Made by a program: the position numbers and the translations under genes. Below are positions 2,126 to 16,323 of a stretch of DNA of 64,000 nt, piece by piece (the stretch's first letter is position 1; each line of letters starts with the position of its first letter). The notes under the pieces are model-generated. The model was not told the DNA's origin. It made no database searches and saw only the letters and a program-made list of their open reading frames with translations. Origin of the DNA: Halobacillus ihumii (GTDB taxonomy: Bacteria > Bacillota > Bacilli > Bacillales > Halobacillaceae); NCBI RefSeq assembly GCF_902726645.1, contig NZ_CACVAO010000001.1, forward strand, positions 2,518,501 through 2,582,500. The letters are read 5' to 3'.

Positions 2126-3457
2126 ATGAAGTTTGTGATTATTGGCGGAGATGCAGCCGGCATGAGTGCGGCGATGCAAATTGTTCGTAATAGTGAAGGA
2201 AATGAAATTGTTACGTTGGAACGTGGTGAAATCTATTCGTACGGCCAGTGTGGTCTGCCATATGTATTTGGAGGAGAGGTGGAATCATTTGATGATTTAG
2301 TTGCCAGAACGCCGGAGCAGTTTCGCAATAAGTATGGAATTGATGCGAGGCAGCTTCATGAAGTTACCAAAGTGGACTGTGACCACAAAGTCGTTTACGG
2401 AATCGATCATAACAGCGGGGAAAAGTTTAAAGAATCCTATGATCGTTTACTTATCGCTACGGGTGCAGATCCCGTCATGCCGCCATGGGAAGGAAAGGAT
2501 CTGTCTGGTATTTACTCATTAAAAACGATCCCTGATGCAAAGGATATTATGGCCGGGTTAGGAGATAAAGCAGATCAAGTGACGATTATCGGTGGAGGTT
2601 ATATTGGCCTGGAGATGGCTGAGAATTTGGCTGCCATTGGGAAGAAAATAAATATTATTGATCGTGGCGATCGTTTAGGCAAAATTTTTGACGAAGATAT
2701 GAGTGAATTCATTCATAAGGAAGCTGAGAAGCAAGGTGTTGAGTTGTTACTTGGTGAATCTGTAGAAGGGTTCAATGGAACGAAAAAGGTAAACAGTGTG
2801 ATCACCGATAAAGGAGAATATGAAACTGATCTTGTTCTGGCAGCTGTCGGTGTAGCTCCTAACACTTCTTTTTTAAACGGAACAGGCATTTATACGAGTT
2901 ATCATCAGGCGATTGAAGTAAATGCTTTTATGGAAACGAGCATTATGGATATTTATGCAGCGGGAGATTGTGCTACACAGTTTAACCGTGTTAAGCAGCG
3001 GCCGGATTATGTGCCGCTTGGAACCCATGCAAATAAACAAGGTCGAATTGCAGGGTTAAATATGGTAGATCACCCTCGAACTTTTCAGGGGATTGTCGGT
3101 ACTTCCATTCTGAAGTTCTTCGATTTGACGCTTGGCAGGACAGGAATTTCCTCCCAGGAGGCAAAGGAAGCACATATCCCTTACAAAACAGTGAAAATTG
3201 ACTCTACACACGCAGCCGGATATTATTCAAAAGAAGATCCGATGACACTGAAACTGATTTACGATGAACAATCAAGACAGTTACTTGGAGGCCAGGTTAT
3301 CGGAGGTCAGGGTGTTGATAAACGAATCGATGTGCTGGCAACAGCGATTTACCATGGTATGAAGGTTGATGAGCTTGTTGATTTGGATCTCTCTTACTCT
3401 CCGCCTTATAACAGTGTGTGGGATCCGATTCAGCAAGCGGCGCGCCGTGCTAAGTGA
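2126..3457 (+). CDS. cdr: CoA-disulfide reductase / NADH oxidase family flavoprotein
   Basis: FAD- and NAD(P)H-dependent pyridine nucleotide-disulfide oxidoreductase of 443 residues. It has an N-terminal [10 protein letters not shown] dinucleotide fold, the single active-site cysteine C42 in YGQCGLPY, a second nucleotide fold at [13 protein letters not shown], and the FAD-contacting segment YAAGDCA. One cysteine rather than a CxxxxC pair is the hallmark of CoA-disulfide reductases and water-forming NADH oxidases. There is no C-terminal rhodanese domain. GAAGGAG at 2111-2117 sits 8 bases before the ATG at 2126; the GTG at 2117 lies inside that site and is rejected. It likely maintains reduced CoA, but an NADH oxidase or polysulfide reductase role cannot be excluded. 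Confidence 0.85.
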
Positions 3458-3550
3458 AACATTTTTCCCTGGTCGGAGCGGATGTGTGAAATGCGGCAGT
3501 AGTGCAGACGCCTCTAAAAGCAGTAATATTTTTGATTTATTTTTTGGATA

Positions 3551-13548: not shown

Positions 13549-13577
13549 AAGCTGCTGTGCACACACAGTAGCTTTTG
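13549..13577 (+). terminator. Terminator after the HesB-like gene
   Basis: An 11-bp stem with one wobble pair (13549-13559 with 13564-13574) is followed by TTTTG. Confidence 0.65.
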
Positions 13578-13601
13578 TTAATTTGGCATGCTTGTTGAGG
13601 G

Positions 13602-13749
13602 TTCGTCCCTGGGTGGAGAGTAATTCGGCCATACATCTTGAGGACTTGGCCCAAACTGGATGTTGTTCGACCGTAACTCAGGAAAACTCGACCCTTACAG
13701 ACTCAGATTCTACCCTAAATCAGAGTTATTCTACCCTACGAGGATTCTT
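13602..13749 (+). repeat. Left array: seven units of a 21-bp-period degenerate repeat
   Basis: Units start at 13602, 13624, 13645, 13666, 13687, 13708 and 13729. All steps are 21 bases except the first (22). The conserved head of each unit is TTCGnCC or a close variant (CTTGGCC, TTCTACC), usually followed by nTAA; the other bases vary. Translated in one frame it gives seven-residue repeats such as DSTLNQS, but no ribosome site or known protein goes with it. A sister array lies at 14848-14995, in the same orientation, on the other side of the NERD gene. Confidence 0.8.
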
Positions 13750-13793
13750 CCTAAATGAAAGGGAAGTTTGTCTAGATTTAGCGGTTCTCTTGT

Positions 13794-14753
13794 TTAAATT
13801 AGGTTGAGCACATATTTCCGATCATTCGTAACACCGGTGTGGTGATCACAAATTTTCAATAGGAGTAATCGAGCTGCTTTTTTAGAGGGTAGCATAGCGA
13901 AATGTCGAAAATTCTTATTAGAAATGGAGGTATCAATCAGAAGCTGATAGTCTCTTAATGTTTTAATGTGCGCATTCCTGGAACGCGCCGCGCATTTTGA
14001 GCAATACCAATATCCACGCTTTCGTTGCATCGGGAAAGAATTACAATGCTCACACTGGACTCCTTTAATGAGGTCATTTAACGAAAGAGAATAACGCTCC
14101 ATAATAGAGGTTTGGTAGGGGAGATTTCCCGTGTTAAGTAATTGGGTCAGAGAATGAACTTGCTCTGGGGAGCAGGAACTTAAACTGAACTGCTCTCTGA
14201 GTGCTTCAATTCTTGGCAGCAGGCTTTTGGCTCGTACTATTTTTCTCCTTAAATGATCGTCGTCTGAGCCCTTTACAGAAATGATTGTATGAGGATTTGA
14301 AATGACAATAAAGGAGTGTAGAGGTATCGGAGGAAAATGAACACGTTCAAGCCAGCGATGAAGTTGGCGTTTCTGATGTTCTACTTGTAGAAAAGGATCA
14401 GGGAAAATATCCTTTTGTTCATTATGAGTTCGAAAAAGCTGATTCCATTCTAAATCGAAACACAATTCCCCTTTGAAATTTTTCACTTCAAGTATCAGGA
14501 TGAATTCTGGACATAGAACTATGGCATCCAATTGGCAGTAATGAATCCCGTCAAATAATCGGATATCTTGGATGACTTGATAATGGTCGGGAAGATATTG
14601 AAGATAGAAATCTAGTGTGGTTTCACCGAAGTATCCTGCTGATTGCTTTAAGAATGTTTCATGGATTTCGGTATAACGGGGGTGGTCGGAAGGTATACGG
14701 TTTAATCCTGCTTCAAGCTGAAGGTGTTGTAAAGTTTTTTCTCTTTTATTCAT
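13794..14753 (-). CDS. NERD-domain putative nuclease with C-terminal zinc ribbon
   Basis: A 319-residue protein. A NERD domain (about residues 38-150) shows the restriction-nuclease-like core D76 in QLDAIVL and E89-V-K91 in ILEVKNFKG. A CxxC...CxxC zinc ribbon follows (CEHC and CSKC, near residues 235-255), then a basic tail with a short helix-rich end. NERD proteins are predicted DNA-processing enzymes, often in mobile or defence settings, with no fixed role. The gene is flanked by the two 21-bp-period arrays and stands alone. No transposase or restriction partner is nearby. Function is inference from the fold only. Confidence 0.82.
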   Translation of the reverse strand: MNKREKTLQHLQLEAGLNRIPSDHPRYTEIHETFLKQSAGYFGETTLDFYLQYLPDHYQVIQDIRLFDGIHYCQLDAIVLCPEFILILEVKNFKGELCFDLEWNQLFRTHNEQKDIFPDPFLQVEHQKRQLHRWLERVHFPPIPLHSFIVISNPHTIISVKGSDDDHLRRKIVRAKSLLPRIEALREQFSLSSCSPEQVHSLTQLLNTGNLPYQTSIMERYSLSLNDLIKGVQCEHCNSFPMQRKRGYWYCSKCAARSRNAHIKTLRDYQLLIDTSISNKNFRHFAMLPSKKAARLLLLKICDHHTGVTNDRKYVLNLI

Positions 14754-15108
14754 CTAATAAATCACTCTCCTTGTCAATACAACTGCAACAATAACTATTC
14801 GCTACAAATGGCTTATTTCCTCTTTTTTTGCAAAATTTTTAAAGTGATTCGTCCCTGCCGGAGCGCTGCTTGGCCATAAATCATGAGAGATCGTCCCTGC
14901 CGGAGCGCTAGCTTGGCCGTAGATCATGAGAGTTCGTCCCTAACGGAGTACTATTCGGCCGTAAACCATAAAGATTCTTCCCTACCACATTATAAAAGCT
15001 ATTCCGCTTTTACTAGTTTACGGTAGACCGTTTTTAGGATAATATAAAAAGCGTCTTGATTCTAACTGAATCAGGCTTATTTTTTGAAAGTTAGAGGGTT
15101 TTAACAAC
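14754..15108. other. Gene-free stretch between the NERD gene and the YdjM-like gene
   Basis: Apart from the repeat array at 14848-14995 it contains AT-rich sequence and, near 15050-15085, an imperfect hairpin (TTGATTC/GAATCAGG) followed by a T run that could terminate read-through toward 15109. No short gene with a ribosome site was found. Confidence 0.5.
14848..14995 (+). repeat. Right array: seven units of the 21-bp-period repeat
   Basis: Units start at 14848, 14869, 14890, 14912, 14933, 14954 and 14975 (steps 21,21,22,21,21,21). TTCGTCC-type and TTGGCC/TTCGGCC-type heads alternate, so the copies also look like a 42-43-bp tandem repeat three and a half times over. Same orientation and unit number as the array at 13602-13749. 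Confidence 0.85.
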
Positions 15109-15800: not shown

Positions 15801-15837
15801 CAAAGAAGAGGGCCTAAAGTGCAGGCCCTCTTCTTTG
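15801..15837 (-). terminator. Intact terminator at the 3' end of the BCCT remnant
   Basis: A 15-bp perfect stem (15801-15815 with 15823-15837). On the minus strand a T-rich tract follows it. Confidence 0.9.
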
Positions 15838-16323
15838 TATATTATTGTTGCTTTTTTGGCGTCTGACTTTCCTTTGTGGGATCGGCTCATGCCGGATCAT
15901 TTTCAAGAAAGCATACATGAAAATAAAGAGAATCACGGCAAAAGGTAAAGATGATACAAGCGAAGCGGTTTGCAATGCATCAAGTCCGCCTGCTATTAAA
16001 AGGACAGCAGAAATCGCTGACATGAGGAAACCCCATACGATTTTAGTTAGTAATGGAGGGAACAGTGTTCTGTCAGCTGTCATACTTGCCAGGATATAAG
16101 TAGCAGAGTCGGCAGACGTGATCAAGAACGTAGCAATTAATGCAATGGAAAGAATGGACAGTATATCTGTCATCGGCAGGTAATTGTACGTTTCAAATAA
16201 AGCCAGTGTTATGTCATTGTTGACGACCTCAGCGATATTCGTTCCATCCATTAAGTCACTATTTAAGGCTGTGCCTCCGAAAGTTCCATACTTGATTTTA
16301 CTAATTGTTTCGTAAAGCGGCAT
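15814..16323 (-). pseudogene. BCCT-family betaine/choline transporter, C-terminal remnant
   Basis: Only about 169 residues remain of a roughly 500-residue transporter. The fragment starts in front of the FGGTA motif that lies about two thirds into OpuD/BetP-type proteins, and continues through ITSADSATYILASM and three more membrane segments to a basic tail. There is no upstream coding sequence for the earlier helices: bases 16324-16635 are non-coding. The intact terminator shows the 3' end is original. It cannot be a working carrier without the aromatic betaine site in the missing helices. Confidence 0.85.

Follow-up and report, generated by a model that had tools for sequence, protein, structure and literature searches.

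What is the connection between a gene and two rows of short repeats that stand on either side of it? In the window (the whole 64,000-nucleotide stretch of Halobacillus ihumii DNA analyzed here), two arrays flank a lone gene encoding a NERD-domain protein. An earlier note on this DNA had proposed that the protein recognizes or maintains the arrays, or that a direct duplication carried the gene with it. We consider it fairly probable that the locus belongs to a family of array-bound nuclease elements with a REP/RAYT-like logic. The arrangement resembles a hitherto undescribed partnership between a nuclease and repeats and is probably a selfish genetic element.

Two arrays and a NERD gene in one block

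Each array has seven unit heads on the same strand at 21-bp steps, with one 22-base step (left heads start at 13602, 13624, 13645, 13666, 13687, 13708, and 13729; right heads at 14848, 14869, 14890, 14912, 14933, 14954, and 14975), and these positions confirm the number, orientation, and spacing given by the earlier note. The features of the locus are as follows.

13549..13576, + strand: terminator-like hairpin with T run, belonging to the upstream gene; the block with the arrays starts just past the hairpin
13585..15006, no strand: block of left array, NERD gene, and right array; missing at the orthologous site of genome G008, which has 100 bp of other sequence instead
13602..13750, + strand: left array, seven 21/22-bp units; head TTC(G/T)NCC(C)
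13794..14753, − strand: NERD gene, 319 aa plus stop (PF08378, E 1.5e-18)
14848..14996, + strand: right array, seven 21/22-bp units; a 42/43-bp unit pair is dominant

Self-match at lags 5 to 69 was tested against 500 dinucleotide shuffles per array. The left array peaks at lag 42 (0.468; z 6.1), and the right array gives 0.438 at lag 43 and 0.426 at lag 42; in both cases none of the 500 shuffles reached such values at any lag from 5 to 69. Lag 21 was equaled by 1 of 500 shuffles for the left array and by 84 of 500 for the right. A 21-bp rhythm is therefore evident in the left array but faint in the right one, in which the 42/43-bp pair is the main signal (a tandem repeat finder gave period 43, 2.3 copies, and score 158). 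The earlier note had predicted an autocorrelation peak at 21 for positions 13550 to 15000. Over that entire region lag 42 does stand above the shuffles (2/500), but lag 21 does not (199/500), because the gene sits between the arrays; the 21-bp rhythm shows in the left array taken by itself. The window heads are degenerate: a TTCGNCC scan allowing at most one mismatch finds all seven left heads (three exact) and just the last three on the right (two exact). No further 18- to 23-bp arrays were found within the window, an Rfam search (E up to 1) found no RNA family near its arrays, and a plasmid search gave no match. Besides the NERD gene, no ORF of at least 60 aa lies wholly within 13585 to 15006.

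In the nearest genome, G001, the NERD gene is 97% identical and both arrays are present. At the G008 site, query positions 1 to 1085 and 2507 to 3495 were matched and the same hairpin is present, with no array after it. In G006, about 20 bp lie between the flanks, with arrays and NERD gene absent as one block; the site is also short in G005 and G002, and in G007 it holds a NERD gene of its own (64%). Since the two arrays belong to a single block that orthologous sites lack, a plain direct duplication carrying the gene is unneeded, and we set that proposal aside. The neighbors of the NERD gene are ordinary genes (YdjM-like and Fe-S-like). Farther along, at 15814 to 16323 on the − strand, lies a 169-aa frame that is perhaps a gene remnant; we take it to resemble the C-terminal part of a BCCT-type transporter.

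Domain composition of the NERD protein

Three parts of the protein can be placed on the window.

14301..14642, − strand: NERD nuclease domain, residues 38 to 151 (Pfam match and alignment of 50 relatives)
13992..14054, − strand: zinc ribbon, Cys 234, 237, 251, and 254, all four invariant in 50 sequences
13797..13973, − strand: winged-helix-like C-terminal domain, residues 261 to 319, likely the putative reader of the head

The PF08378 match (67.7 bits against a cutoff of 22.1) covers residues 38 to 151, and NERD is the sole family that the protein matches in Pfam at E up to 1. Among the 50 aligned relatives used for residue analysis (the protein alignment omitted 8 of the 62 family loci described below, which were short or had internal stops, and 7 distant loci), G40, G43, E44, D76, K91, and Q123 are invariant, and E89 is kept in at least 90%. 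By this alignment, the residues of the PD-(D/E)XK core are kept. The protein is modeled as a PD-(D/E)XK nuclease joined to a Cys4 zinc ribbon and a winged helix. In the structure search the closest matches include the defense nucleases Can2, Cdn1, McrBC, and NucC; Foldseek with the C-terminus gave no match at E ≤ 0.001. The NCBIfam MAD6 model matched the NERD part only, at 25 bits against a cutoff of 460. Annotated relatives are nuclease-related/NERD proteins in Halobacillus, Thalassobacillus, Fictibacillus, Cytobacillus, Metabacillus, Virgibacillus, and Bacillus.

Arrays beside NERD relatives in other genomes

A first scan of the collection, with a pattern of 16 fixed bases, returned 85 stretches, about the number expected by chance. 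Searching 31 genomes for NERD relatives gave 96 rows in 25 of them and no match in 6. With fragments and weak matches omitted, the analysis covered 62 family loci from 22 genomes (at four loci, two fragment rows from the same place were joined) and 7 distant loci. Both 450-bp sides were scored in a head-blind manner (four units, best ten columns; threshold ≥15 at period 20 or 21), and 154 genes of 700 to 1400 bp, from 20-kb stretches of 19 of the 22 family genomes, served as controls. We found a 20/21-bp array within 450 bp of 43 of the 62 family loci, compared with 5 of 154 control genes (p = 9e-25) and none of the 7 distant NERD genes. Counted by side, 53 of 124 NERD sides bear an array, against 5 of 308 control sides and 11 of 880 random 450-bp windows. 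When 16 periods were tried, the peak was at 20 or 21 in 53 of the 55 NERD sides scoring ≥15; 13 of the 880 random windows passed at any period, 11 of them at 20/21, which argues that the background hits, too, are mostly dispersed arrays. Among the 19 loci below threshold, several have near-threshold 20/21-bp scores, and L194 has a 22-bp array. The co-occurrence of arrays and NERD genes raised by the earlier note therefore holds for 43 of 62 family loci, but with heads that mostly differ from locus to locus.

Close relatives may share a consensus head (L115/L172; L101/L102 in part); otherwise heads are mostly unlike between loci, and a single genome may hold up to about ten NERD relatives, several unrelated heads, and many broken genes. 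Where arrays occur on both sides (13 loci), the two carry the same head in direct orientation at 8 (similarity 0.79 to 0.99), the same head inverted at 3, and unlike heads at 2. Heads are non-palindromic: self-complementarity over 80 NERD-side arrays is 0.369, compared with 0.416 in shuffled columns. At L196 (G001:C2:777026-779485), the NERD gene is in two pieces about 1.5 kb apart, and the adjoining array has the head GATTGTCCTCTAAC.

We looked for co-variation of head and protein. Head similarity is weakly correlated with whole-protein identity (rho 0.078; 51 of 999 permutations), so co-variation across the whole protein was rejected as an account of the head. By region, the values are 0.116 for the C-terminus (14/999), 0.090 for residues 152 to 228 (12/999), 0.035 for the NERD domain (240/999), 0.011 for the zinc ribbon (400/999), and −0.066 for residues 1 to 36 (912/999). 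The proteins encoded at L175 and L183 share about 70% identity over most parts, yet the heads of these loci differ; thus, no single region accounts for the head. The frequency of change between the window and G001 is alike for heads (10/154) and tails (11/148), and no constraint on heads is therefore visible in that comparison.

Dispersed arrays and the heads of their own genome

A head-blind scan at periods 17 to 25, covering 41 20-kb stretches of G007 and 21 of G028, identified 13 arrays of 20/21 bp in G007 (one of which is itself a NERD locus) and 16 in G028. For 22 of the 28 dispersed arrays, the best match among NERD-side heads comes from the same genome, beating every other genome's, and in all 22 the period equals that of the matched head, 20-bp families included. 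The other six comprise one array in G007, whose closest head is from G018 yet which scores 0.88 to its own genome, and five in G028; the latter include heads TTCGGACAA and TTGACCGAA, which occur at NERD loci elsewhere in the genome set, as well as a repeat that is probably coding. The TTCGGACAA arrays are an orphan family in G028 (for example, L261:3010-3094, and also on C1, C2, C5, C10, and C15): no NERD-side array with such a head was found in that genome, and the G018 NERD locus L181 has it.

Array density, counted in stretches without regions of unknown bases, is 36 in 1.6 Mb for 19 family-bearing genomes (G007, 13 in 0.82 Mb; G028, 16 in 0.42 Mb; the rest, 7 in 0.36 Mb), against 1 in 0.4 Mb for two family-free genomes; the array lacking the family is in G027. 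When 38 arrays were located on a simple map of ORFs, 22 fell between two mapped genes and 13 in open frames (several of which run through the array or masked sequence), while 3 lacked one neighbor. The 22 intergenic arrays occupy 10 convergent gaps (one of them the NERD locus), 12 tandem gaps, and no divergent gap, whereas gaps overall number 135, 556, and 185, respectively.

With 20/21-bp arrays beside the family in many genera and heads recurring within their own genome, recognition or maintenance of the arrays by the NERD protein is the best reading; of the earlier proposal, the association stands (arrays beside the gene, the same head dispersed in the same genome), and recognition is putative. 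Arrays do lie scattered beside unrelated genes, a pattern that the earlier note took to count against a link, yet head, period, and presence all link them to NERD genes.

Some arrays lie in open frames. The ORF at 13583 to 13807 (+), which has no Pfam match, traverses the left array, and similar frames run through the 21-bp arrays at L248, L249, L255, and L203 of G007; all could be annotated as small repeat proteins. An array at L262 (16271 to 16460) lies inside a longer frame and may be coding. The earlier note had suspected that the heptapeptides readable in the left array are a by-product of the period, and this is borne out: periods keep close to two turns of DNA (20, 21, rarely 22 bp) and 20-bp families exist. 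As a general explanation, a protein-coding repeat is ruled out, since a reading frame is not preserved by 20-bp families or 22-bp steps. Annotators should be warned that frames through 21-bp arrays resemble repeat proteins. The arrays at L203, L248, L249, and L255 of G007 belong to the GCGCCGATAAA family, with 9 to 24 near-identical units per array and site-specific variants, a sign of recent local growth.

Gain, loss, and possible copying of array sites

Array L099 of G001 sits after a terminator that G007, G008, and G009 have without an array. G001, G007, and G009 have arrays at the L092 and L096 sites, where those of G008 are decayed; at L096, the same flanks enclose seven units in G007 and three in G009. 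Another NERD site is common across the genus, with genes whole, split, or lost. Such sharing, with gains and losses between species, indicates that the system is old and mostly resident, and the many array and NERD sites common between species indicate that movement is rare.

Similar dispersed copies occur in the family with head ATTCTNAAAT. Two loci of G007 (L329 and L330) and two of G009 (L332 and L333) share about 0.2 kb (84 to 93% identity in the main matches), and the likeness covers the array, unit tails, and both flanks; the remainder of these 2.8- to 2.9-kb loci shows no match except one 52-bp piece. The array end of the four copies and the sequence that follows match the end of the NERD-side array at L104 (83 bp, 83%), and their array end also matches that at L165. 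In G028, the same variant unit opens the NERD-side array of L190 and three dispersed ones, those of L264, L265, and L268. For the head family of the window, tails in G001 are in register for 2 of 91 array pairs at p ≤ 0.01, which is about chance; wholesale copying was not seen there. Tails sharing at least 7 of 10 bases make up 16 of 84 adjacent unit pairs but only about 134 of 4,666 between-locus pairs, and this sharing by neighboring units points to local duplication. No target-site duplication was recognized by eye at absent-block and copy sites, where flanks are highly diverged.

Head families among related genomes

The ATTCTNAAAT head was derived from NERD-side arrays of G005, G006, G009, and G018, and 31 genomes were scanned for three such heads at 21-bp steps with up to three mismatches. 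Triplets occur in seven (G001, 13; G005, 8; G006, 12; G007, 4; G008, 9; G009, 5; G018, 5) and in none of the other 24; the reversed control gave 0 throughout. Six of the seven positive genomes have a NERD gene or remnant adjoining that head, the genes being broken in G007 and G008. In G001, which has the arrays, no NERD gene with a ATTCTNAAAT head was found.

TTCGNCC triplets, corresponding to the head named by the earlier note, number 47 in G001, 1 in G007, and 0 in G008 and G009, while TTCTNCC (ATTCTNCC) triplets number 47 in G001, 95 in G007, 45 in G009, and 12 in G008 (0 to 2 in seven other genomes of the genus). In two orthologous arrays, the varying position is G in 7 of 15 G001 heads, compared with 1 of 20 in G007 and G009 together. 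Heads thus seem to change in concert, as a trans-acting reader would leave them; the alternative is shared drift by copying. On the idea that arrays decay once NERD is lost, G008 points both ways: it retains NERD fragments only and has 12 ATTCTNCC triplets versus 45 to 95 in three relatives, but its 9 ATTCTNAAAT triplets are as many as in others. In G020, the reversed control pattern of the scan that counted TTCGNCC triplets matched 15 times, far above other genomes; this is perhaps an array family of its own, matched by chance.

A proposed mechanism and its alternatives

We propose that the winged helix would read a short non-palindromic head and that protomers would align on one DNA face, as expected where heads recur every 20 to 21 bp. 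Two-turn spacing would seat protomers side by side, so period and head would travel together. Arrays stand beside the gene and, without it, at further sites, mostly in intergenic DNA at gene ends, and several families with unlike heads and periods coexist in a genome. Each family would then comprise a resident, often single-copy nuclease gene and a population of short dispersed elements that the nuclease recognizes. The nuclease, by working on arrays or close to them while DNA is replicated or repaired, could duplicate units locally and, rarely, give rise to copies elsewhere. What the results show is the association, the agreement of head and period, the pattern of occupied and empty orthologous sites, similar dispersed copies in one family, and intact catalytic residues. 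Weighing against this reading are chance-level tail sharing in the window's head family, the rarity of movement, target duplications looked for by eye and not recognized, the equal change of heads and tails between the window and G001, the weak head-protein correlation, the 19 loci below threshold, the six dispersed arrays that no own-genome head fits better, the ATTCTNAAAT arrays of G001, and the G027 array.

That the protein instead serves the host as a DNA organizer is unlikely in our judgment. It would bind arrays at the ends of genes and so organize the chromosome, stop read-through, or protect replication, with selection keeping the arrays for that purpose. The orientation of intergenic arrays (10 convergent, 12 tandem, and 0 divergent against 135, 556, and 185 gaps) agrees with such a role, but gene-end placement is equally expected of tolerated insertions. 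Sites common between species, heads that drift together, and a period of about two turns would also fit. Arguing otherwise are the intact catalytic residues, the numbers per genome (NERD relatives reaching about ten, with several unrelated heads), the many broken genes, and the absence of any match in 6 of the 31 genomes.

The same intact residues and nuclease fold, the structural matches to Can2, Cdn1, McrBC, and NucC, and the several different systems per genome would suit an immune or addiction system, in which arrays mark self or restrain the nuclease and DNA without arrays, or array loss, permits cutting. We regard this as improbable, considering that PADLOC models gave no match better than E 0.017, the neighbors in the window are ordinary genes, and no relative was confirmed among the viral contigs searched.

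It is very improbable that the arrays are operators controlling the NERD gene alone: 44 of 80 NERD-side arrays are upstream of the gene, but 36 are downstream, several loci have downstream arrays only, and other arrays lie far from any NERD gene. We give equally little credence to arrays and NERD genes being bystanders that gather in tolerant gaps or are co-inherited without recognition, since, for all that both are intergenic and the head-protein correlation is weak, dispersed arrays match the NERD genes of their own genome in head and period and are absent beside distant NERDs and rare beside control genes and in family-free genomes.

The array-bound nuclease reading also invites a wider proposal, possible but tentative: a multi-family class of "array nucleases," each a NERD-zinc ribbon-winged helix protein addressed by the letters and helical spacing of its own array, maintaining the array population, changing heads in concert, and spreading arrays independently of HUH, DDE, or serine/tyrosine recombinase chemistry. 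Such proteins would give a maker to a large and mostly unexplained set of intergenic repeats in genomes of the Bacillaceae type, and a target to an uncharacterized nuclease family. Dozens of natural protein-head pairs with unlike letters and periods offer material on how winged helices change targets and read spacing. If the nuclease does spread arrays, it would be an extra enzyme class populating bacterial chromosomes with short elements.

Comparison with known systems

In open-license literature (subscription journals being outside the scope of the search), no paper was found by title or abstract on NERD proteins with repeat arrays. As in CRISPR, a row of conserved heads with variable tails lies beside a nuclease gene; unlike CRISPR, the unit is only 20 to 21 bp, neighboring tails are often shared (the 16 of 84 adjacent pairs above), and Pfam identified no cas gene among the NERD protein, its two neighbors, and the left-array frame. 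Iteron, parS, and centromere arrays are bound by winged-helix or ParB-type proteins (e.g., AspA, PDB 5k5q), whereas the arrays described here are chromosomal, occur at many sites per genome, and have a presumed binder with a nuclease domain.

In Tn7, TnsA joins a winged helix, at its C-terminus, to a nuclease fold of the restriction type, and TnsB sites of about 22 bp stand in rows at the element ends. The NERD system shares with Tn7-like elements a predicted nuclease fold and winged helix and rows of units of similar length. It differs in that the window NERD gene has no adjoining DDE transposase or other transposition gene, NERD-type arrays stand alone at many sites, and the head varies by paralog.

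The closest parallel in logic is REP/RAYT, which is described as a resident nuclease-type gene adjoined by its own group of repeats, with those repeats dispersed mostly outside genes and different genes having different repeat groups in one genome (PMC3116915). A NERD gene likewise adjoins its own repeat group, and the same repeats are dispersed in the genome. The enzymes differ, being PD-(D/E)XK in the NERD system and Y1/HUH in REP/RAYT, as do the repeats: non-palindromic, phased units of 20/21 bp rather than pairs of palindromic hairpins. The system thus works like REP/RAYT yet fails two of its defining features, the palindromes and the Y1/HUH enzyme.
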